64,000 bases of DNA from Thermoanaerobaculia bacterium (GTDB taxonomy: Bacteria > Acidobacteriota > Thermoanaerobaculia > Multivoradales > Multivoraceae), in the NCBI GenBank assembly GCA_022822365.1, contig JAJEBV010000008.1, positions 295,524-359,523 on the forward strand, given 5' to 3'. Shown piece after piece: positions 7,293-42,200 of this stretch. Both the position numbers and the translations under genes were made by a program. Position 1 is the stretch's first letter; each line of letters begins with the position of its first letter. The notes under the pieces are model-generated. The model was not told where the DNA came from. It saw only the letters and a program-made list of their open reading frames with translations, and made no database searches.

Positions 7293-8066
7293 TCAGGGTC
7301 GAGACACAGCCTCCTCCAGGCGCTCCAGGTACGGCATGGCCGAGTCCAGGTTACCGACGAAGGGATCTCGGCCCGCGTCCTCGTTCCACTCGTACTCGGT
7401 GGCCTGGGCCAGCATCCGCGCCGCGTCGTGACCGAAGAAGCGGGCGACAACGGCCAGACTCATGTCGATCCCGGCCGACACGCCGGAGGAAGTCATCACG
7501 TGGCCGGCATCGACCCAGCGGGCTTCCTTCACCCACTCGGTCTCGGGGCCGAAGCCCGCGATGTAACTGAAAAAGGCCTTGTTGCCTGTCGCCGGCAGGC
7601 CGTCAAGGATGCCGGCCTTGGCGAGGATTGCCGAGCCGGTGCAGACGGAGGTGGTGAGTTGGACCTCGGCGGCGCGCTCGGCGACGAAGTCCAGGAGAGC
7701 CTGGTTCTCGACTTCCCGGAGCGTGCCGATGCCGCCCGGCACCATGATCACGTCGAGCGGCGGGGCCTCGTCGTAGCCGTACTGAGCCTCGACCTTCGGC
7801 GCCATCTCGGCCGGATAGGTCGTCGTGGTCAGGGCGACCGGCCGGGCGGAGTCCGCGATCAGGTGGACACGGATCAGCCCGGGCCCGGCGTTGAGCCACA
7901 TCTCGATCGGTCCGAAGACGTCGAGCGGCTCGGCGCCGTCGTAGAGGACGACGCCGATGTCGAGCGGCGGATCGTAGCCTCCGACTTCAGACTGGGCCGG
8001 CAGCGGGTCACCTCCCGCCGTCGCCAGCAAGGCCGTGACAATCAGAACGCGGGCAAGGTTCGTCAT
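7293..8066 (-). CDS. Exported DJ-1/PfpI (GATase1-like) family protein
   Basis: This 257-residue protein has an N-terminal signal peptide (ARVLIVTALLATAGG, cleavage near PAQS). A DJ-1/PfpI domain follows: DIGVVLYDGAEPLDVFGPIE, DVIMVPGGIGT, then the nucleophile elbow SVCTGSAILAKAG with Cys142. The segment ATGNKAFF and SSGVSAGIDMSLAVVARFFG match the AraC-associated and isonitrile-hydratase-like branch. No DNA-binding domain is present, so it is not a GlxA-type regulator. Periplasmic location is unusual for this fold; the function may be a hydrolase, chaperone or amidase. The TAG stop faces the symporter stop across a 16-bp gap. Confidence 0.82.
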   Translation of the reverse strand: MTNLARVLIVTALLATAGGDPLPAQSEVGGYDPPLDIGVVLYDGAEPLDVFGPIEMWLNAGPGLIRVHLIADSARPVALTTTTYPAEMAPKVEAQYGYDEAPPLDVIMVPGGIGTLREVENQALLDFVAERAAEVQLTTSVCTGSAILAKAGILDGLPATGNKAFFSYIAGFGPETEWVKEARWVDAGHVMTSSGVSAGIDMSLAVVARFFGHDAARMLAQATEYEWNEDAGRDPFVGNLDSAMPYLERLEEAVSRP

Positions 8067-8662: not shown

Positions 8663-11220
8663 AGCCCATGCCGTTACCGAAGCCGATCCGCAACAAGGTC
8701 GACTACCTGACACCCGAGCTTCGGGGGCGCGTCGAAGCGCTGAAGCTGGAGGCGCCTGAGACCACCGAAGACATCGCCGTCCTGAGCGATCGGCTCGACA
8801 CGCTGTGGCACTGGTCGAACGCCTACTCCCTCACCGGCGGGCCGATCCCCGACGTCTTCCCGCAGCTCCTCGCGAACGCGAACCGCTCGCTCCGGGGGCT
8901 CGGAGGCGGAGCGACGATTCCGGTGCCGCGCGTCTCTGAGTTCATCCGCCTCTACACCCGGGAATTCCAGATCAAGGACGAACACCCGGGGGCAATCGGC
9001 ACGCTGACGCTCGACCCGCCCGGTCCCTTCCGCGCCGGCGACCGCGTAACAGTCCGGTTGACCTATACCGTGGGCACGCTCGGCATGGCGGAGGGCGGCG
9101 GCATCCTGGTGCGTGGAGCGCGTCGGACCGGCATTCAGGCCGAGGACGCGGCGGGCCGGAACTACGTCTCGGTCGAAACGTCGAATCCGGACGCGACGCT
9201 GACCGCCAGCGAACCATGGGGAGACTGGCGGGGGATGCACTTCGGCAACCGCGGCGGCCAGGCGCGCGCCGGCGTCCCTCGCGCCGTGCTGCAGTTCCGT
9301 CTGAGCGGCGCGTCGCTCGATGAAGGCGACACGATCACCATCACCTACGGCGACACCTCGGGGGGCGGACCCGGATTCACGCTGCAGGAAACCTCCAACG
9401 ACCAGGTGATCCTGCACCTCTACGCCGACATCGAAGGCACGGGCGACCTGCTGCGACCGGTCTGGCCTTCCTTCGAGGTGCTGGGCCGGGACGAGGTCCG
9501 CTACGTCAACGCGGTCGCTCCGTCGATCGTCGCGCCCGGCGAGCCCTTCACGCTGGCCGTTCGCGCCGAGGACCGGCTGAAGAACCCGTCCTCCGGCGTC
9601 ATGCCCGCGCTCGAGGTGCTGCTGGACGGCGAGCCATTCCGCACGATCGAGGCCGGCAGTCCGGCCATCTCGCTGCTCGAGAACGTGAATCTCGCCGAAC
9701 CCGGCGTCTACCGCTTCTCCGTCCGGAACGAGGACGGATCGATCCGGGCGACCAGCAATCCCGTTCGCGTCGAGGAGGACCCCGAAACGCGCGTCTACTG
9801 GGGCGAGACCCACGGTCACACCGCCTTCGCCGAAGGCCAGGGGTCGCCCGACGGCTACTACCGGTTCGGCCGCGACGTCGCCCGACTCGACTTCCTCAGC
9901 CTCTCCGAGCACGACATCTGGATGGACGACAGCGAGTGGCGGAAGCTGCAGGAGCTGGTCGAGGAGTACCGGATCGAAGGCGAATTCACGACGATCCTCG
10001 GCTTCGAGTGGACGTCCCGGTCGCCGCTCGGCGGGCACCACAACGTGTTCTTCCGCGACACGCCCGGCCGCAGCCGGGTCCCGAACCAGAAGGCGCCCCT
10101 GCTCGACGAGCTGTACGCGGGGCTGCGCGCTCAGAACAGCAACGATGACGTGCTGGTCATCCCCCACGCCCACCAGCCCGCCGACTGGACGAACAGCGAC
10201 CCCGACCTGGGGCGACTGGTCGAGATCCAGTCCGGCCACGGCACCTTCGACTGGTTCGGCAACAAGTACCTGCAGAACGGCTTCGAGGTCGGCTTCATCG
10301 GCGCCTCCGACAACCACAACGGCCATCCCGGCTACTCCGGGGCCGGCAACCGTCAACTGGGCGGCCTGGCCGCCGTCTACGCGCCCGAGGACAACGCTGA
10401 CGCCATCTTCAGCGCGCTCCGCGACCGGGCCGCGTACGCGACAACCGGCGAGCGGATCCTCCTCGAGGCGAGTCTCAACGGCGCCAGCATGGGCACGCGC
10501 CAGGAGGACGCCGCCGTGCGCCGGGTCGACTGCCGGGTCAGCGGCACGGCCCCGATCGACGCGATCGACGTCATCAAGAACGGAGCGATCGTCTACACCA
10601 GGAGATACCTGGAGAGCGCTCTGTCCGAGGAAGCGCGGGTGCAGATCACCTTCGAGTCGTCGACCGAGATCCACGGCGAGCGCACACCTCCACGCGGCGG
10701 CCGACCGTGGAGGGGAGCGATCCACGTCGCCGGAGCCGAACTGGTCGACCACGACGATCCCTGGTTCACGCAGCCCGCGACCTGGCGAACCGCCCGCAAC
10801 GCGGAAGACCGGAACCGGATCGACTTCGACTTCCCGACCCGTGGCCGTCCGAAGTCACTCGTTCTCGAGTTGCGCGGCGCAAGCGCCGACACGGTCATCA
10901 CCGTCGACATGGAGACGACGACCGAGTCGCGCGGCTCGGGCGGCTACGTTCGCATTCCCCAGGAACTGCCGGCGAACACCGAGCGGTTCCGGCTCGGCGA
11001 CCTGAAAGGCCAGGTCGAGCGCCGCGAGTACCAGGTGCTGGAGCACACGGACGCGCTCTCGGCTCAGATCGTGACCGAGGGCCGGGCCCTCGACCAGGAG
11101 TTCAGCTTCACCGACCAGGGCGAAGTCCGGCCCGGCGACTACTACTACCTCCGCGTCCGCCAGATCGACGGCAGCATGGCGTGGTCGAGTCCGTTCTGGG
11201 TGGGAGGGAGCTCCGGGTAG
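8659..11220 (+). CDS. DUF3604 family metal-dependent (PHP-like) protein
   Basis: This protein of about 853 residues contains the DUF3604 domain in its middle: YWGETHGHTAFAEGQGSPDG, then LDFLSLSEHDIWMDD, TTILGFEWTS, HHNVFFRD and GFIGASDNHNGHPG. Its histidine/aspartate pattern resembles PHP-type phosphoesterases. The N-terminal 370 residues look like beta-rich Ig-like segments and the C-terminal part is another beta domain. No signal peptide is visible. Possible starts are GTG 8659 (overlapping the hicA stop) or ATG 8668. DUF3604 proteins are abundant in marine bacteria and are often near sulfatases or hydrolases; the substrate is unknown. Confidence 0.85.
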   Translation: MKPMPLPKPIRNKVDYLTPELRGRVEALKLEAPETTEDIAVLSDRLDTLWHWSNAYSLTGGPIPDVFPQLLANANRSLRGLGGGATIPVPRVSEFIRLYTREFQIKDEHPGAIGTLTLDPPGPFRAGDRVTVRLTYTVGTLGMAEGGGILVRGARRTGIQAEDAAGRNYVSVETSNPDATLTASEPWGDWRGMHFGNRGGQARAGVPRAVLQFRLSGASLDEGDTITITYGDTSGGGPGFTLQETSNDQVILHLYADIEGTGDLLRPVWPSFEVLGRDEVRYVNAVAPSIVAPGEPFTLAVRAEDRLKNPSSGVMPALEVLLDGEPFRTIEAGSPAISLLENVNLAEPGVYRFSVRNEDGSIRATSNPVRVEEDPETRVYWGETHGHTAFAEGQGSPDGYYRFGRDVARLDFLSLSEHDIWMDDSEWRKLQELVEEYRIEGEFTTILGFEWTSRSPLGGHHNVFFRDTPGRSRVPNQKAPLLDELYAGLRAQNSNDDVLVIPHAHQPADWTNSDPDLGRLVEIQSGHGTFDWFGNKYLQNGFEVGFIGASDNHNGHPGYSGAGNRQLGGLAAVYAPEDNADAIFSALRDRAAYATTGERILLEASLNGASMGTRQEDAAVRRVDCRVSGTAPIDAIDVIKNGAIVYTRRYLESALSEEARVQITFESSTEIHGERTPPRGGRPWRGAIHVAGAELVDHDDPWFTQPATWRTARNAEDRNRIDFDFPTRGRPKSLVLELRGASADTVITVDMETTTESRGSGGYVRIPQELPANTERFRLGDLKGQVERREYQVLEHTDALSAQIVTEGRALDQEFSFTDQGEVRPGDYYYLRVRQIDGSMAWSSPFWVGGSSG

Positions 11221-35518: not shown

Positions 35519-35608
35519 AGCCGGGCGCCGGACGGGCGCCCGCACCGCCGCCGCGCTTGCGCCGCGGCGGCGTCGACGACATCTGAGCCGGTTCGTCCGG
35601 CTGCTCCG

Positions 35609-35649
35609 AAGGGCCTTCGGAACCGTCAATCGGTTCCGAGGGTCCTTTT
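35609..35649 (+). terminator. Strong rho-independent terminator after the helicase gene
   Basis: A 17-bp stem (35609-35625 with 35631-35647, two G-U pairs) closes a TCAAT loop and ends in TTTT. The inner part CGGAACCGtcaatCGGTTCCG is perfect. It isolates the following peptide cluster from helicase transcription. Two further GC-rich hairpins lie between the stop and this stem (35521-35574). Confidence 0.85.
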
Positions 35650-35743
35650 GCGTCTTAGTCGATACACGCGGCCGCTGAACCCACGGCCACCGACAACAAC
35701 CCGGCCGTCCGGCCGTCACGAACGGAACTACTGGAGCTGGACG

Positions 35744-35965
35744 ATGACGTCCCCGAACCTCACTTCGCACCTCAGCCAACCACGAACCAGGCCGCGCGCC
35801 GGCTATCGACTGCGCGGATGGAACCCCCGACTCTCCCAGCCCCCAGCCAGCGCCCTCGAAGCACGCCTGACCCGTGCGGTTCACATGCTCGACGCCCCGT
35901 CGGCGCCGCTGGTCTCCATGCTGCACAGCCGGGCCGCCGGCCCGGCGGGAAGGCGGCGGCGATGA
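35744..35965 (+). CDS. Small basic protein at the head of the peptide cluster
   Basis: This predicted 73-residue protein is rich in Arg, Pro and Ser (HLSQPRTRPRAGYRLRGW, ending AGPAGRRRR) with one possible amphipathic helix (ALEARLTRAVHMLDA). It has no signal peptide and no family I recognise. Support comes from GGAG 7 bp before ATG 35744 and a 4-bp ATGA overlap with the thioredoxin-like gene, implying coupled translation. It could be a regulator, a leader for coupling, or another precursor. Composition alone would also fit a chance frame in GC-rich DNA. Confidence 0.45.
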   Translation: MTSPNLTSHLSQPRTRPRAGYRLRGWNPRLSQPPASALEARLTRAVHMLDAPSAPLVSMLHSRAAGPAGRRRR

Positions 35966-36465
35966 ACCGGCGCCGCCTGGCCATCGCCGCCGTCGTCGTG
36001 GCCGTTCTCGCCCCCCTCGGCGGTCTCCTCTGGTTCGAGTCCGGAATCCGCGCCCGGCAGGCCCAGCGCCCGGAAGTCGGGGCGACGTTCCCCGCCCTGC
36101 CGGGCCTCGCGGACGGCGAGACGCTGCCGGCCGCTCCGGGACGGCTGCGGGTGGTCACATTCGCCAGGGCCGGCTGCGGCAACTGCGACCGAACGATCAC
36201 CACCCTGCGGCGCCTGAACCGGACCGAAGATCCGGCCTTCGACCTGATCGCGGTCGTCGCCGGCGCCCATGAGCCGGAAGCGAACGGCGACGGCCTTCTC
36301 GCCATCGCCGACCCGGACGCCTCCGTCTCGAACCGCTTCGGCGTCGTCCACGTGCCGCTCGTGTTCCTGGTCGATGAACAGTCCCGGATCCTCGCGGTTG
36401 CCACCGGCGAACGTCCGGAGACCGCCTGGCGCGCTTTCTTGGAGTCCGGAACCGATGCGCTCTGA
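35962..36465 (+). CDS. Membrane-anchored thioredoxin-like (TlpA/redoxin) protein
   Basis: This 167-residue protein has an N-terminal transmembrane anchor (RLAIAAVVVAVLAPLGGLLW) and a thioredoxin-fold domain placed outside the cytoplasm. The active site is GCGNCDRT (C72, C75); the cis-proline region appears as HVPLVFLVDEQSRIL. Family members reduce, oxidise or isomerise disulfides of exported proteins. Here it overlaps the downstream C39 peptidase gene by 11 bp and precedes four small peptides with paired cysteines, so handling of their disulfide bonds is the natural inference. CGNC is not a classic CGPC/CPHC pair, so redox direction cannot be predicted. Confidence 0.82.
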   Translation: MNRRRLAIAAVVVAVLAPLGGLLWFESGIRARQAQRPEVGATFPALPGLADGETLPAAPGRLRVVTFARAGCGNCDRTITTLRRLNRTEDPAFDLIAVVAGAHEPEANGDGLLAIADPDASVSNRFGVVHVPLVFLVDEQSRILAVATGERPETAWRAFLESGTDAL

Positions 36466-37057
36466 GCGATTCCGGATCCGTCCCCCGCACGCGGCGGCCG
36501 CCGGCCTGCTGGTTGCGGCCGGTCTCGTGACGGTCGCTTCCCGGGCGCTGGGCCCGACCATGGACCGGCTCGCCTGGGCCGCCGCGCTCGACCCATCGGC
36601 GCCCGCCCCGGGCGAGGTCGTTCGCCAGCAGAGGCGCTCCGACTGCGGTCCGGCGGCCCTGAAGATGGTCCTGGACCACTGGGGCATCCAGGACGTGACG
36701 CTCGCCGAGCTAGAGATCGCGACCGGAACCGGACCGGACGGCACCAGCCTCCTGGCGCTCAAGAAAGCCGCCGAGGAACGGGGCGTGACGAGCCAGGGGC
36801 TCCGGCTTCCGGTCCATCGGCTCCGCGAGGTCTCGCTTCCCGCGATCGCTCACGTCCACGGCGACCACTTCGTCGTCATCCGCAGCACCGGCGACGAGCT
36901 CGTCATCGACGACCCCTCTCTGGGCCGGCTGCGCATGAGCTCCCGCGCCTTCGCCCGCTCCTGGGACGGCGTCGTTCTGAGCTTCACCGGCGGCCCTCCA
37001 CAGATTCCGCGGACGGTACGAAACCCGTCCGTTTCACCCGCAACTCACAACCCCTGA
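36455..37057 (+). CDS. Membrane-anchored stand-alone C39 peptidase (bacteriocin-leader type)
   Basis: This 200-residue protein has one hydrophobic anchor (residues 12-34) and a C39 papain-like domain. The oxyanion Gln58 lies six residues before the nucleophile Cys64 (QQRRSDCGPAALKMVLDHWG), with His138 in HGDHFVVI and Asp153 in IDDPSLG. All four expected residues are present. Most C39 domains are fused to an ABC exporter and cut leaders after double glycine; this one is free and anchored so that its active site should face the periplasm. It overlaps the thioredoxin gene and lies 15 bp before the first peptide gene. Processing of those peptides is inferred. Confidence 0.88.
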   Translation: MRSERFRIRPPHAAAAGLLVAAGLVTVASRALGPTMDRLAWAAALDPSAPAPGEVVRQQRRSDCGPAALKMVLDHWGIQDVTLAELEIATGTGPDGTSLLALKKAAEERGVTSQGLRLPVHRLREVSLPAIAHVHGDHFVVIRSTGDELVIDDPSLGRLRMSSRAFARSWDGVVLSFTGGPPQIPRTVRNPSVSPATHNP

Positions 37058-37072
37058 AGGAGATACTCCTCT

Positions 37073-37399
37073 ATGAAACTCCGCATTCTCTTTGTTTCCG
37101 CCCTCTTCCTGTTCCTTGCCGGCGCGGCACTGGCCGTTCCGACCATCGGCGAACCGACCGTTCCCGACGGAGCCGAACTCCTGGCCGCGTGGGACCTGGA
37201 ATCGCTTGCAGCCCCGACTTCGGCCGGCTACACGCTCGCCCCACCGGTCGTCGCGCCCGAACCCACCGAGCTGGCGGTCTACTCGCCCTGCGGTTGCACG
37301 CCGATTCCCGGCTGTCCGTTCCCGATTCCCTGGCCCTCACCCGGCCCCACGTTCCCGTTCCCGCTGCCCGGTCCGTGCACGTGTCCGCTGCCGTTCTAG
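37073..37399 (+). CDS. Exported peptide 1 with Pro/Cys-rich C-terminus
   Basis: This 108-residue precursor has a strong Sec signal (LRILFVSALFLFLAGAALA) and a ribosome site GAAGGAGA 12 bp before the ATG. The mature part is acidic and ends in an unusual tail (about 71-108) with cysteines C73, C75, C81, C102 and C104. Two C-x-C pairs flank a run of Pro-Phe/Pro-Trp/Pro-Ser units (PFPIPWPSPGPTFPFPLPG). No GG site and no known family. The odd cysteine count leaves one free thiol or an intermolecular bond. A surface, structural or antimicrobial peptide are all possible; membership of the cluster is by position. Confidence 0.75.
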   Translation: MKLRILFVSALFLFLAGAALAVPTIGEPTVPDGAELLAAWDLESLAAPTSAGYTLAPPVVAPEPTELAVYSPCGCTPIPGCPFPIPWPSPGPTFPFPLPGPCTCPLPF

Positions 37400-37436
37400 T
37401 GCAGATCACACCCACATCTTCCGAAGGAATACCGAC

Positions 37437-37613
37437 ATGAACACCGCTTCAACCCTGATCGCGATCGTGCCCGAGGCCGACCTCGCGGCCGTCACCGGCG
37501 GAAACGACTGGGTCGTCTCGGCGGCCTGCTGGGCGGCAGCGGTCTTCGTCGACGCCTTCTTTCCAGGCCTGGGTGCCGTGATCTCCCTTTCCTGCCTGAC
37601 CCCCGTCATCTGA
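37437..37613 (+). CDS. Double-glycine-leader bacteriocin-like peptide 2
   Basis: This 58-residue precursor has no Sec signal. Residues 1-22 form a typical double-glycine leader: PEADLAAVTGG carries acidic -8, Leu -7, Val -4 and Gly-Gly at -2/-1. Cleavage would release a 36-residue, very hydrophobic peptide with two cysteines (C31 and C53) 21 residues apart and an FFPGLGAV centre. A GAAGGA ribosome site precedes ATG 37437. The size, leader and cysteine pair match class II bacteriocins, and a C39 peptidase gene lies 380 bp upstream. The target and activity are unknown. Confidence 0.82.
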   Translation: MNTASTLIAIVPEADLAAVTGGNDWVVSAACWAAAVFVDAFFPGLGAVISLSCLTPVI

Positions 37614-37662
37614 AACCACCACGAACGACTCGTTCACATCTGAACCCCAAAGGATCTCACTC

Positions 37663-37983
37663 ATGACAAAGACCCTTCTAGCCGTCGTGGCGGGCGCTGC
37701 GCTGTCGGTCAGCGCAGCCGTTCCGCCACCTGACTCCCTTTCTCGCTCGCCCGTGGACTCCGAGCTGCGCACAGCAACGGCCGTTCACGAGCCTGCCATC
37801 GACCTCGGTCCGCACTCCCTGCCCAACCAGGTTCTGACGCAGACCGTGGGAACGGGCCCCACTTCCGACTTCCTCTGCGGAGCGGCCGCGGGAGCCGGTT
37901 TCGCCCTCACGCTGAGCGGCGTCGGGGCGATCCCGGGCGTACTGCTGGGCGGCGCCGGCATGGCCTGCGCCATGTTCTTCTGA
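37663..37983 (+). CDS. Exported two-cysteine hydrophobic peptide 3
   Basis: This 106-residue precursor begins with a Sec signal (KTLLAVVAGAALSVSAAV), followed by a polar spacer (about 21-62) and the segment TVGTGPTSDF. A Gly/Ala-rich hydrophobic core follows, bounded by C72 and C102 (GAAAGAGF, GVGAIPGVLLGGAG), ending MFF. The core and the GTG site align in position with peptides 2 and 4. The spacer-plus-core plan suggests a pro-peptide exported by Sec and then cut. AAAGGA lies 9 bp before ATG 37663. No known family recognised. Confidence 0.78.
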   Translation: MTKTLLAVVAGAALSVSAAVPPPDSLSRSPVDSELRTATAVHEPAIDLGPHSLPNQVLTQTVGTGPTSDFLCGAAAGAGFALTLSGVGAIPGVLLGGAGMACAMFF

Positions 37984-38053
37984 GCTCAGCCACTCGACGC
38001 AACCAGTCAGTCAACCAATCAACCCAAACCACTTGATCCTAGAAAGGAACGAC

Positions 38054-38350
38054 ATGTCCAGGAAAACACTAGCCACAGTTCTCCTCATCACTCTCGCGTT
38101 CGCCCTCGCTCCAACGGCAGGGGCCAGCAGCGCTCCCGACTTCCCGGTCCCGGACGGCGGCTATCCGGCCGAGGCCGGGCAAGTCGGTGAACTCGTCCTC
38201 GCGACGGCGACCGGCGGAACGAACTGGAGTTGCGTCGGCGCCGTCCTCGGCTTCAGCTTCGGCGCCATGGCTGCCGGCGCCGTGTTCGGTCCCGCCGCTC
38301 TAGCCGTCGCCGGAGCCTACGCACCCGTCCTACTTCCGCTCTGCTCCTAG
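38054..38350 (+). CDS. Exported two-cysteine peptide 4 with GG site
   Basis: This 98-residue precursor has a Sec signal (KTLATVLLITLAFALAPTAG), an acidic spacer and a GG site at residues 54-55 (GELVLATATGG, Leu at -7). The 43-residue hydrophobic core carries C60 and C97 and starts TNWSC. The TGG-(T/N)-(N/D)-W junction nearly repeats that of peptide 2 (TGG-N-D-W), so the same protease may cut both. A GAAAGGA site precedes ATG 38054. The combination of a Sec signal and a double-glycine site in one precursor is unusual. Confidence 0.8.
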   Translation: MSRKTLATVLLITLAFALAPTAGASSAPDFPVPDGGYPAEAGQVGELVLATATGGTNWSCVGAVLGFSFGAMAAGAVFGPAALAVAGAYAPVLLPLCS

Positions 38351-38384
38351 GTCCCGTCCCTCAGACGCAGTAAGACCACGTCAA

Positions 38385-38475
38385 TAGAGAGTTCGATGGC
38401 CACGAAGAAGTCAGGAGCCCTGCCCAACCCATCGGGTCGACCTCCCACGTCTCCTGCGTGGCCATCGTCTCTCTA
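38385..38475 (+). repeat. Large hairpin: 18-bp stem plus inner stem
   Basis: TAGAGAG and CGATGGCCACG (38385-38391, 38394-38404) pair with CGTGGCCATCG and CTCTCTA (38457-38467, 38469-38475), separated by a small bulge. CAGGAG (38412-38417) pairs with CTCCTG (38451-38456) and ACCCatcGGGT forms a tip hairpin. AGAGA at 38483-38487 could compete for TCTCT of the right arm. No T-run follows. A regulatory RNA, processing site or small mobile-like element are possible. Confidence 0.65.
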
Positions 38476-38488
38476 CTCCGCAGAGATG

Positions 38489-38638
38489 TTTGACGGACGC
38501 CATCCCGGCGCGCTAGCGTCCGCCCGTTGGTTGTCAGAGGCGCAGTGGGCCTGCGAGCCGGACCCCCTGCCATGCTTGGCCAGTGCCCCTGGGCCTAGGG
38601 TCGCTCCCTTCGTCAGGCGAAGCGGTGGGGGGTCTCGT
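38489..38638 (+). ncRNA. Conserved intergenic element, copy A (candidate structured leader)
   Basis: It shares ordered blocks with 41985-42132: TTTGACGGA, CCGTTGGTTGTC, GTGGGCCTGCGAGCCGG, GGGTCGCTCCC, GGCGAA and GTYTCGT. Spacing after the third block is identical in both copies. The TCGCT-loop hairpin has different stem bases in the two copies (AGGG/CCCT here, CCGGG/CCCGG there), which suggests RNA structure. It lies 92 bp before the ABC permease gene. RNA nature is inferred. Confidence 0.5.
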
Positions 38639-38730
38639 CGCTCCTCTGCCAGGCGGCCAGCGCGGTCCGCCGCCAGTCCTGGTGTCGGCCTTCCCCATCG
38701 CGAGAGCCGGACAGTGACCCCAAGGACTCC

Positions 38731-40317
38731 ATGGCCAGGTTGACTGCGCACGGAAGCCGGGCCGACCGGCTGCTGACCCTGGCGCGGCTGGTGTTGCCGG
38801 ACGCCATTCGGCGGGCCAACCAGCCGCTGGCGGTGGCGATCCCGGTGGCCGTGCTGTTCCTCGTGTTCGCGACGGTCGCGACGCTGGCGTTGCTTCCGGC
38901 GATCTTCGCGGTTGAGAGCGACTCACTGCGGAGGAACCTCCTGAGCCTGATCGCCTGCTCCGTGACGGCGTTAGCGCTGCTCGTGCAGGTGCTGCTTCGA
39001 GCGCCCGTGACCTGGCTGCTCGACCTGGAGGACCTGCTGCGGCTGCCCGTCGGCTTCCGGGACCTGTACGGGCTCCGTCTCGCTCTCAGTACGATCGGGT
39101 ACTGGCTCCCCGTTCTCGGTCCTGCCGGCGTCTACCTCACCGTCATGAGGTCGGGAGGTCTCAGCGGAGTGCCGGTCACCCTGCTGGGCATTCTGAGCCT
39201 GGTCTGGATCTTCGGCCGTACGGTGGCGATCCTGTCTCTTCTCGTCGACCGCTCGGTCGAAGGTGGGCTCAGCACACTGGCCATGGTGGTGGTCATGGCG
39301 GCCTGTCAAGGCGCGATTCTCTTCGGATCGCTGGCGCTCGGCGGCGAGCTCGATTCCGAAGCGATCATTGGGGCGATCGAGGAGTCCGCCGTTCTCGGCG
39401 GCCTCGGCTACACGCCCCCCGGCCTCATCGTCGGCATCGTCCACCAACCGGGGCCTTCGTTGCCGAATCTGGCGAGACTTGGCGGCCTGATGATCGTTCT
39501 CGGCGCCCTGGTCGCGCTCGAGAACCGGCTGCTCCTTCGCAGCTACGTAGAACGTCCTGGCGGTGACCGCCGAGTCGCTTCCGGTGTGCTTCCTCTGGTC
39601 CGAATGCTCCGAAGATCCCGCCGTCTCACTCCCATGGCCACCCTTACGGTCCTCGAAACCGAATGCCTGTTGCGCCTCAAACCGGCAAGGTTGGTTCTGG
39701 CGATTGCGGTCGCCTTCGCCCTGGTGTGGGTACCCGCCCTCGCCGGTCTCACAGTCGGTCTGGCCGGGCTCTTTGGACTGGCGCTCCATGGTTTCCGGGC
39801 GGAGAAACAGCCGTCGACCGGCTACGTATGGAGGGAATCTCTCGGCCTGCCCCTCGCCGGCCTCCAGATCTTCCGCGCAACCGGCCGCGCGCCCAGCGTG
39901 ATGAGCATCGTGGTTCTAGTGCTCATCCTGAGTCTGACGCCACTCGACTGGTTCGGCTGGAGCTTCTTCCTGGTTGCGTCCTGCCTGATGCTCGCCGGCG
40001 TCCTCCTGGCCGGAGCCGCATACGGCCTGATCCAGGTCCACTGGCCCCAACGCAGTGCCGGCCCGGGCAACGAGACGAATGCCGCGAAGTTCGCGGCGTC
40101 ACTCCTGTTGCCGCAGATCGCCTTCGCTCCAGTACTCCTCTCCTTCATTCTGTACATCCTGTACGAGCGCGAACGTCTCAGCGCTCTTACCGTCGGCCTC
40201 GTCGCGGCAGCAGTCCTCCTCCTCGCTGCCGGGGCCGCGTACGCGTCTCGCCGATGGCAGAGACGGATGCTGGAAACCCGAGGCCGCGAACTCCTCCTCG
40301 GAGACCCTTCCCACTAA
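38731..40317 (+). CDS. ABC-type exporter membrane subunit
   Basis: This 528-residue protein has about 12 hydrophobic segments in two halves separated by a basic cytoplasmic loop (VRMLRRSRRLTPMA), the layout of ABC-2-like exporter permeases. No other motif is visible. It starts at ATG 38731. The ATPase gene follows 51 bp later on the same strand and a Yip1-like protein after it, so the three probably form one transporter unit. Position next to the secreted-peptide genes suggests peptide export or self-protection. A lone lipid or ion transporter cannot be excluded. Confidence 0.78.
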   Translation: MARLTAHGSRADRLLTLARLVLPDAIRRANQPLAVAIPVAVLFLVFATVATLALLPAIFAVESDSLRRNLLSLIACSVTALALLVQVLLRAPVTWLLDLEDLLRLPVGFRDLYGLRLALSTIGYWLPVLGPAGVYLTVMRSGGLSGVPVTLLGILSLVWIFGRTVAILSLLVDRSVEGGLSTLAMVVVMAACQGAILFGSLALGGELDSEAIIGAIEESAVLGGLGYTPPGLIVGIVHQPGPSLPNLARLGGLMIVLGALVALENRLLLRSYVERPGGDRRVASGVLPLVRMLRRSRRLTPMATLTVLETECLLRLKPARLVLAIAVAFALVWVPALAGLTVGLAGLFGLALHGFRAEKQPSTGYVWRESLGLPLAGLQIFRATGRAPSVMSIVVLVLILSLTPLDWFGWSFFLVASCLMLAGVLLAGAAYGLIQVHWPQRSAGPGNETNAAKFAASLLLPQIAFAPVLLSFILYILYERERLSALTVGLVAAAVLLLAAGAAYASRRWQRRMLETRGRELLLGDPSH

Positions 40318-40368
40318 CCCTGCCCCACACCCCCCTCTGCCCCTACAACCACAAGGAACACCTCACGG

Positions 40369-41157
40369 ATGGAAGAAGCAATCAAGGCAGAGAACCTGAC
40401 CCGGTCGTACGGAGGAAACGTCGTCGTCGACGGCGTCGACCTGGACGTCCGGGAGGGGCAGATCCTGGGTTTCGTCGGCCCCAACGGGGCCGGCAAGACG
40501 ACGACCTGGTCGATGCTGACCGGGGTCTTGCGGCCGACGAAGGGCACGGTGCGGCTGCTCGGCAAGCCGATGGACATCGACGACACCGAGCTCAAGCAGC
40601 AACTCGGCATCGTGCCCGATCACAGCGTGATGTTCGAGAGCCTGACCGGCGAGGAACTGCTGCTGTCGTATGCCCGCATCTACGGCCTGGGCCGCGAGGA
40701 CGCCGGGCAGCGGACCGACGAGGCGCTCGCCGTGTTCGACCTCGAGGACGCCGCCAGGCGCCCGATCACGACCTACTCCCACGGCATGAGGAAGAAGATC
40801 CGCCTTGCCGCGGCGACCCTTCACGCACCGCGAATCCTGTTCCTCGACGAGCCGTTCGAGGGAATGGACGCCCTGAGCGCCCGCACCGTCATGTCGATCC
40901 TGCAGCAGATGGCCGAGCAGGGAGCAGCCATCTTCCTCACTTCCCACATGCTCGACTACGTCGAGCGCGTGTCGACCCACATCGCCGTCATCAGGGACGG
41001 CAAGGTCCTCCTGTCGTGCTCCCGGGAGGAGTTCCGCGAACTGCCCGCCGCCGAGGGAGAAGACGGCGCCGGCCGGCTCGAGAACCTCATTCTCAGCATC
41101 TCCAGGCGCGAGAGGTTCTCCCGCCTCTCCTGGATCGGCAACAGGAGCACGACATGA
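40369..41157 (+). CDS. ABC transporter ATP-binding protein (exporter type)
   Basis: This 262-residue ATPase has Walker A GPNGAGKTT (residues 37-45), a Q-loop region QLGIVPDH, a variant signature YSHGMRKK (136-143, in place of LSGGQ), Walker B RILFLDEP (155-162) and the switch histidine in LTSHML. The YSxGM form is typical of ABC-2 exporters for drugs, peptides and lipids. It should power the adjacent permease. Its stop overlaps the start of the Yip1-like gene (ATGA). Confidence 0.93.
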   Translation: MEEAIKAENLTRSYGGNVVVDGVDLDVREGQILGFVGPNGAGKTTTWSMLTGVLRPTKGTVRLLGKPMDIDDTELKQQLGIVPDHSVMFESLTGEELLLSYARIYGLGREDAGQRTDEALAVFDLEDAARRPITTYSHGMRKKIRLAAATLHAPRILFLDEPFEGMDALSARTVMSILQQMAEQGAAIFLTSHMLDYVERVSTHIAVIRDGKVLLSCSREEFRELPAAEGEDGAGRLENLILSISRRERFSRLSWIGNRSTT

Positions 41158-41933
41158 CCGAGTACCAAGGCAGCATCAACGGCGAACGCAACGCCGAAAC
41201 CGGCGGCAACCACTCACAGGGCCGGAACGCCTGGCTCACGGCGCTGCTCGGGCTCTTCGCGTCGCCGCGGCAGAGTTTCGAGATCATCCGGAACCGCAAC
41301 CCATGGCTCGCAACGCTGCTCCTGGTCCTGGCCGGAAACGCCGCCCTGGCCCTGGCCTCGGCGCCACTGGGTCTCCAGGCCATGCGAGCCCAACTGACGG
41401 ACCGGATGCCTGGCAGCCCCGAACAGGTCAACGCCATGATGGCGCAGTTCGAACAGGCAGCCGCGGCAGGACGTTGGCTGGCGATGGCCACCGGTCCCCT
41501 CTCCGTGGCCGTCGGACTCGCGATCCAGACCGTGCTCGTGTGGCTCCTGGCGATCGCCCTCCAGGGCCGGCTCCGATTCGTCCAGTCCCTCGCCCTGATG
41601 ATCCACCTGGCCGTGATCACTCATCTCCAGAGCTGGGCCAACTTCCTTCTCGTTCACCTCCGCGGCACCGACGCGATCCGATCGCAACTGGACCTCCGTG
41701 CGCCGATGGGACTCGACCTGCTGCTGGCCGGCGACAACGCGACCCTCAACGCCGTCTACGCGAGCATCAACCCGTTCACGATCTGGTTTCTCGCGCTGCT
41801 CGCGCTGGGCGCCGCCGCGGTGTTCGAGGTCCCGCAGCGCAAGGCATGGCTGCTGGCCGCCATCTACTGGGCAGCGACGACGGCCTTCACCGCCGTGGCG
41901 GCCGGTCTCTTCGCCCGGCTCACACCGAGCTGA
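41154..41933 (+). CDS. Yip1-domain-like membrane protein
   Basis: This 259-residue protein has a polar N-terminus, then five hydrophobic segments, beginning with the Yip1-type opening LTALLGLFASPRQSFEIIRNR and ending LLAAIYWAATTAFTAVAAGL. In bacteria, Yip1-like proteins are often encoded next to ABC-2 exporter genes. Translation is coupled to the ATPase through a 4-bp overlap. It may be a transporter accessory or an immunity-like membrane protein, but neither is shown. A hairpin follows its stop. Confidence 0.8.
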   Translation: MTEYQGSINGERNAETGGNHSQGRNAWLTALLGLFASPRQSFEIIRNRNPWLATLLLVLAGNAALALASAPLGLQAMRAQLTDRMPGSPEQVNAMMAQFEQAAAAGRWLAMATGPLSVAVGLAIQTVLVWLLAIALQGRLRFVQSLALMIHLAVITHLQSWANFLLVHLRGTDAIRSQLDLRAPMGLDLLLAGDNATLNAVYASINPFTIWFLALLALGAAAVFEVPQRKAWLLAAIYWAATTAFTAVAAGLFARLTPS

Positions 41934-41984: not shown

Positions 41985-42132
41985 TTTGACGGAGAATCGA
42001 CCGCGCGGTAGCTTCTCGCCGTTGGTTGTCGTCGCGCCGTGGGCCTGCGAGCCGGGTCTCCTGCCGAATACAACAGTCGACACCAGGCGCCGGGTCGCTC
42101 CCGGCGCTCGGCGAATAGGCAGGGCGTTTCGT
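41985..42132 (+). ncRNA. Conserved intergenic element, copy B (candidate structured leader)
   Basis: It aligns with 38489-38638 through six blocks in the same order. Exactly 36 nt separate GAGCCGG from GGGTCGCTCCC in both, then 7 nt to GGCGAA and 10 nt to GTYTCGT. GCCGGG-tcgct-CCCGGC forms a 6-bp stem here. A promoter at 42201 lies downstream, so if transcribed it is read from further upstream or is a DNA element. Confidence 0.5.
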
Positions 42133-42200
42133 GCCCACTGTGCATGGCGACCAACAAGGCCCGGCGCCAACTCTCTCTGCCGGCCTCAGCCGCGGCATGC

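Follow-up and report, generated by a model that had tools for sequence, protein, structure and literature searches.

C39 peptidases are usually viewed as forming the cytoplasmic entry side of an ATP-binding cassette (ABC) exporter. Class II bacteriocins and microcins use this arrangement as a peptidase-containing ABC transporter (PCAT), in which C39 cuts a double-glycine leader from small hydrophobic cores that often carry disulfides. Stand-alone C39 peptidases have also been described: FapD, from the Fap amyloid system of Pseudomonas, carries a Sec signal and is active in the periplasm (PMC5557850), and the NapP/NapF/NapABC island of Neisseria gonorrhoeae combines small double-glycine (GG) peptides with a separate C39 enzyme assigned by the authors to the periplasm (PMC11798529). 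With respect to self-protection, YknWXYZ, an ABC transporter with the Yip1 protein YknW, protects Bacillus against SDP, a 42-aa peptide with one disulfide (PMC4887032). Here, we analyze a gene cluster within a 64-kb stretch (hereafter the window) of contig JAJEBV010000008.1 from a Thermoanaerobaculia bacterium, whose assembly comprises 4.38 Mb in 50 contigs. On comparative sequence evidence, we propose that this cluster provides maturation and immunity for small secreted peptides, likely membrane-active bacteriocins, that would be exported by Sec, cleaved by a periplasmic C39 peptidase, closed by a disulfide and prevented from harming their producer. We place the probability of this reading at roughly 0.6; the proposed maturation route is well supported at the sequence level, and we infer the antibacterial activity, the outer-membrane exit and the redoxin substrate.

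A preliminary description of this DNA had reported a series of + strand genes with 4- to 11-bp overlaps. All of the genes are present where it placed them, and the overlaps measure 4, 11 and 4 bp:

35744..35965, +, 73-aa basic open reading frame (ORF), ATGA-coupled to the redoxin gene, found at the same position genus-wide with 40-94% identity, no family match in Pfam
35962..36465, +, membrane-anchored redoxin/TlpA-like thiol protein with the motif CGNC (Pfam Redoxin, 4e-6)
36455..37057, +, membrane-anchored stand-alone C39 peptidase with Q58/C64/H138/D153 (PF03412, E 4e-31)
37073..37399, +, p108 (108 aa), putative Sec signal, proline-rich cysteine-containing C-terminus, no double-glycine site
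37437..37613, +, p58 (58 aa), no Sec signal, leader MNTASTLIAIVPEADLAAVTGG of the plain double-glycine type, core of 36 aa with 2 cysteines
37663..37983, +, p106 (106 aa), putative Sec signal, then leader LPNQVLTQTVGT and a core of 42 aa with cysteines 8 and 38
38054..38350, +, p98 (98 aa), putative Sec signal, leader ending in LATATGG, 43-aa core with cysteines 5 and 42
38503..38680, +, non-coding element A, lying between the p98 and permease genes and related to element B
38731..40317, +, presumed permease partner of the ATPase, with many predicted helices
40369..41157, +, ABC ATPase, DrrA-like (PF00005, 5e-30)
41154..41933, +, Yip1-family membrane protein, YknW-like (PF04893, 5e-10)
41998..42172, +, non-coding element B, strongly conserved genus-wide, one long hairpin

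The four small proteins and the permease found no reliable match in Pfam or NCBIfam, and a defence-system library returned only generic ATPase matches. The strong terminator said to isolate these genes fared less well: inspection by eye shows a strong hairpin at about 35606-35650, yet its tail contains four T only and it is absent from the terminator scan list.

The 200-aa C39 protein matches PF03412 at 107.9 bits (cut-off 22), and the residues previously assigned to it, Q58, C64, H138 and D153, hold up and show no variation in 37 of 37 compared loci. The protein stops after the C39 domain, lacking the fusion to ABC transmembrane and ATPase domains that characterizes PCATs. A transporter-fused C39 was considered as its identity and is ruled out; the host genome encodes 0 PCATs, and its 2 C39 genes, the window copy and a second copy, are both stand-alone. 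Relatives of the protein in the Protein Data Bank (PDB) are the C39 domains of AMS/PCAT transporters and ComA. In a tree of 61 C39 domains, the anchored C39s (n=23) form a single clade with support of 100/99, apart from the transporter-fused domains, and the short C39 proteins of two further loci (L189 and L191) group among the transporters, outside this clade. When loci from all species were scanned for non-acidobacterial relatives of the arrangement, the top-scoring ones examined among the best 80 of 479 loci were all PCATs. From the positive-inside rule, we infer that the anchored C39 domain is periplasmic.

A periplasmic C39 also raises the prospect that the peptides are structural subunits that build amyloid or matrix after processing by a FapD-like protease, given that FapD, a periplasmic C39 protease exported by Sec, is required for amyloid secretion (PMC5557850). 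The C39 protein does show similarity to the NCBIfam FapD model NF058616, at 48.8 bits against a cut-off of 330 that places it outside that family, but it scores higher, at 85 bits, to the C39 of bacteriocin transporters, and by sequence score it is nearer to those domains than to FapD. Moreover, the cores of 35-59 aa are very hydrophobic with terminal cysteines and lack Fap-like repeats, and no FapF-like gene is present in the cluster. We consider a structural role very improbable.

Reading 98 precursors revealed a typical anatomy of stacked leaders, in which a charged N-terminal end and a signal-like hydrophobic segment precede an acidic or proline-containing stretch, a double-glycine-type site (for example LSDEELAAVSGG, LTEAEMVDIVGA, LPNQVLTQTVGT or LATATGG) and the core. 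The features that suggest a Sec signal (charged N-terminus, hydrophobic stretch and A-x-A-like sites) were recognized by eye and hydropathy. Inner leaders were scored against twelve known double-glycine leaders and compared with shuffles, with a few sites mis-placed by the scorer; 58 of 78 sites had a shuffle p <0.05, a descriptive count because the rows are related. In the window, a canonical double-glycine-type leader precedes the core of p58 (p <0.001, beating all 1000 shuffles), p106 (p 0.014) and, marginally, p98 (p 0.043). The PF10439 model matched none of the window precursors, with the best relative reaching 18.7 bits against 27.1.

The cores behind these leaders are strongly hydrophobic and about 35-59 residues long, and their cysteines sit close to both ends. 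In 34 of 35 representative cores the first cysteine lies at position 2-12 and the last 0-9 residues from the end. GxxxG is mildly enriched in them (48 versus 36.6, p 0.019). We combined the Sec signal, double-glycine-type site and terminal cysteines into a signature, defined after the peptides had been seen, so that its counts speak to specificity and not discovery. It occurred 38 times beside C39 and 0 times elsewhere in the genus loci, once in 1.73 Mb of control strand, and in the window it picked out exactly p106 and p98. A profile search of the genome for orphan precursors returned only two, both at the second C39 locus, although the profile is insensitive, having missed the window's own precursors.

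In the route that we propose, p106, p98 and most of their relatives would enter the periplasm via Sec, where signal peptidase would probably remove the first leader. The anchored C39, freed from its usual ABC transporter, would then cut at the second, double-glycine-type leader, a step that we favor because of the leader fit, the clade-wide co-occurrence and the invariant catalytic residues. This would release hydrophobic cores of ~35-59 residues with cysteines near both ends, expected to form one end-to-end disulfide that the redoxin may make or correct, unless its task is to keep the C39 cysteine reduced. The ATPase, permease and YknW-like Yip1 protein would clear the mature peptide from the producer's inner membrane and thereby confer immunity, by analogy with YknWXYZ and SDP, and the ATPase and permease may also carry the Sec-less p58.

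The preliminary description had treated p108 as equivalent to the other three precursors; p108 has no double-glycine site and is therefore not clearly a C39 substrate. Across its family (loci L033-L052), p108 has a putative Sec signal and a very proline-rich, cysteine-containing C-terminus (PFPIPWPSPGP...), and a p108-type gene lies directly 3' of C39 in nearly every genus cluster. At one locus (L051), a p108-like tail stands behind a double-glycine-type site.

The plain double-glycine leader of p58 and its L042 counterpart, which lack a Sec signal, together with a genome devoid of any C39-ABC exporter, would also be compatible with passage of the peptides, or of p58 at the least, through the inner membrane by way of the ABC ATPase and permease, so that C39 cuts after ABC rather than Sec export. 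We find this distinctly doubtful, as nearly all other precursors bear a Sec-like signal and clusters without p58 retain the permease and ATPase.

The cluster is conserved as a unit. A C39 orthologue is present in 21 of 21 sampled genomes of the genus (70-98% identity in the other 20), and 7 of the 21 contain a second, more distant copy. Genus-wide, the order runs SNF2 helicase, basic ORF, redoxin, C39, peptides, permease, ATPase and Yip1, with exceptions where contigs end early or where permeases and Yip1 genes are locally duplicated or decayed; because this order is conserved, the cluster is not a chance assembly. Named genomes of the genus are the Acidobacteriota metagenome bins RHO1_bin_33, CO36388bin_1 and COS1_bin_13, whose names suggest sponges.

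Compared with the two nearest relatives with full clusters, C39 is 98 and 95% identical and the ATPase 99 and 100%, whereas the permease is 71% and the peptides are 40-93% identical; the genes neighbouring the permease stand at 94-100%. Several second clusters contain the same parts with different peptides, an ATPase 85% identical, a permease 30-39% and a Yip1 protein 31-36% identical. These identity contrasts indicate that the peptides, permease and Yip1 change fast while the machinery stays constant. The host genome's own second cluster (L032, with features noted at 7418-7717 (-) and 9444-10397 (+)) encodes an anchored C39, a different, smaller ABC-2-like permease and a pair of divergent precursors of the Sec plus double-glycine type, one of them read from the opposite strand.

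Beyond the genus, family SZUA-115 has a redoxin, C39, Yip1 and three peptides, and family BP6.bin107 has a redoxin, C39, two peptides, permease, ATPase and Yip1. Genomes of another Acidobacteriota family contain a similar set; in a further family, C39 is adjoined by two peptides with poor double-glycine sites, a Yip1 protein and an ATPase, and one genome has the redoxin, C39 and Yip1 with no peptide recognized. C39 homologues in related genomes thus adjoin small two-cysteine peptides, the co-occurrence on which the preliminary description had staked its reading.

That description's reading would also have failed had the peptides shown no purifying selection, yet most of their cores do show it. 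Nei-Gojobori point estimates of omega, comparing the core with the part before it, gave 0.19 versus 0.70 for p106, 0.35 versus 0.49 for p98, and 0.27 versus 0.45 and 0.36 versus 0.51 for two other families; the C-terminal part of p108 gave 0.47. Most cores are therefore purifying (omega 0.19-0.47), but p58 reverses the pattern, with 1.04 in the core and 0.44 before it.

The precursors also appear to be exchanged in pieces. At two loci (L036, L037) a p108-type signal stands ahead of a p106-type leader and core, and at two more (L040, L044) the same p108-type signal precedes a core that has its own signal elsewhere; compared with L047 and L052, these four loci present the same core behind different signals and the same signal before different cores. 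Such swapping, located upstream of the inner leader, argues for precursors built from signal, leader and core modules. Over 34 nt, the p58 leader and the inner leader of p98 resemble each other in DNA sequence (76%), which links the Sec-bearing and Sec-less forms of the precursors. Together, the balance of the evidence tips us toward a phylum-wide and undescribed class of ribosomal peptide, featuring stacked Sec then double-glycine leaders, a transporter-separated C39 outside the cytoplasm, an end-to-end disulfide, a dedicated redoxin, YknW-like immunity and cassette swapping of signal and core.

The presence of the cluster in every sampled genome of the genus resembles a core function more than a patchy weapon, and would suit peptides matured in the same way but acting as signals or cell-fate factors rather than against competitors. 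Gonococcal Naps, peptides with a periplasm-placed C39 peptidase, set a precedent, promoting autolysis without inhibiting competitors (PMC11798529). On the other hand, the machinery stays stable against fast variation in peptide sets, peptide numbers and cores, and the permease and Yip1 diverge along with the peptides whereas the ATPase remains 85-100% identical within the genus, a pattern expected of toxin-immunity arms races. A receptor or kinase gene is also absent from the cluster. A signaling role is in our view unlikely.

The redoxin has an arginine-rich N-terminus followed by one hydrophobic segment, which would place its domain outside. Its CG[NS]C motif is conserved in 25 compared orthologues, and its closest NCBIfam models, all sub-threshold, are ResA/DsbE/MauD, with Redoxin/AhpC-TSA-like similarity as well. 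In most loci its gene overlaps or abuts that of C39, and redoxin-like proteins adjoin C39 in distant families too. Both this proximity and the family affiliation would fit a redoxin that serves the protease by keeping C64 reduced in an oxidizing periplasm, leaving the peptide disulfide to general enzymes or air. The cysteines conserved near both ends of the peptides across families fit the peptide equally well as the redoxin's substrate. We give protease maintenance close to even odds; being a matter of a single step, it does not conflict with the maturation and immunity route as a whole.

The permease adjoins the ATPase in genus clusters, and the ATPase scores 215 bits against TIGR01188 (cut-off 312). 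The Yip1 protein exceeds the threshold of the Yip1 Pfam domain (39.8 bits, cut-off 28.6) and reaches 72.6 bits against NF052650, the YknW family, below the 110 bits required for membership. The proposed immunity draws on this YknW similarity and on the protection that YknWXYZ affords against SDP; a complete YknWXYZ-type assembly is not seen, as the permease has no Pfam or NCBIfam match and the cluster has no fusion-protein gene. Tandem permease copies occur at several loci (L036:6298-7875, L041, L044 and L047), some broken by stops or deletions beside intact copies, suggesting that a fast-evolving component has been duplicated and has decayed.

Elements A and B flank the transporter genes and are the only two copies in the genome. 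Element B is ~97% identical across much of the genus and folds as a single long hairpin (GUUGGUUGUC...GGCGACCAAC), with weak covariation (3 of 47 pairs); element A is possibly a structured RNA. An Rfam search of the cluster including both elements gave no real match, and the genome's 6S RNA is located elsewhere.

Several observations weigh against the proposed maturation and immunity of bacteriocins. The inner leader of p98 and those of the most distant families fit the canonical leader only weakly, and a single route does not cover all four precursors, because p58 has no Sec signal and p108 no double-glycine site. AlphaFold models of p106 (pLDDT 43) and of the permease (pLDDT 47) are of low confidence, and the permease is without family matches. 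An outer-membrane pore is absent from the cluster, with TolC-type proteins elsewhere in the genome, and Nap, the closest GG-peptide analogue, did not inhibit competitors (PMC11798529). Export, oxidation and periplasmic cutting of the precursors, as the preliminary description had envisaged, nevertheless fit the comparative evidence and are supported in outline, the weakest points of that interpretation being p108, biological activity and how the peptides would leave the cell; what it had overlooked are the stacked leaders, the swapping of leaders and cores, and a genome without transporter-fused C39.

If this reading is correct, mining for N-terminal double-glycine leaders or C39-ABC fusions would miss such peptides, and Acidobacteriota would represent a readable reservoir of candidate antimicrobials. 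The cluster also makes it possible to test, outside Bacillus, whether an ABC transporter and a Yip1 protein confer immunity.

In the open-access literature, with subscription papers outside the scope of the search, we found no description of a system combining Sec, double-glycine leaders and a stand-alone C39. The accessible text of the Nap and FapD papers describes no set of redoxin, ABC transporter and Yip1 (PMC11798529, PMC5557850). The Nap island differs further in its outer-membrane pore, which is FapF-like, and in its immunity homologue of lactococcin type, with no thioredoxin or Yip1 described (PMC11798529), and FapD acts on amyloid components without canonical C39 sites alongside the outer-membrane pore FapF (PMC5557850). 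SDP (SdpC) and YknWXYZ resemble the cluster in the short, one-disulfide mature peptide and in the pairing of a Yip1 protein with an ABC transporter, but YknYZ is a MacB-type transporter with the membrane-fusion protein YknX, and the cluster permease has no detected relation to that transporter. To our knowledge, SDP has neither a C39 nor a double-glycine leader. In contrast to the PCAT bacteriocins, the C39 of this cluster is unfused and predicted to lie outside, and its precursors carry an extra, putative Sec signal; the recognition chemistry of C39 seems here to have been relocated outside and coupled to the general Sec pathway.

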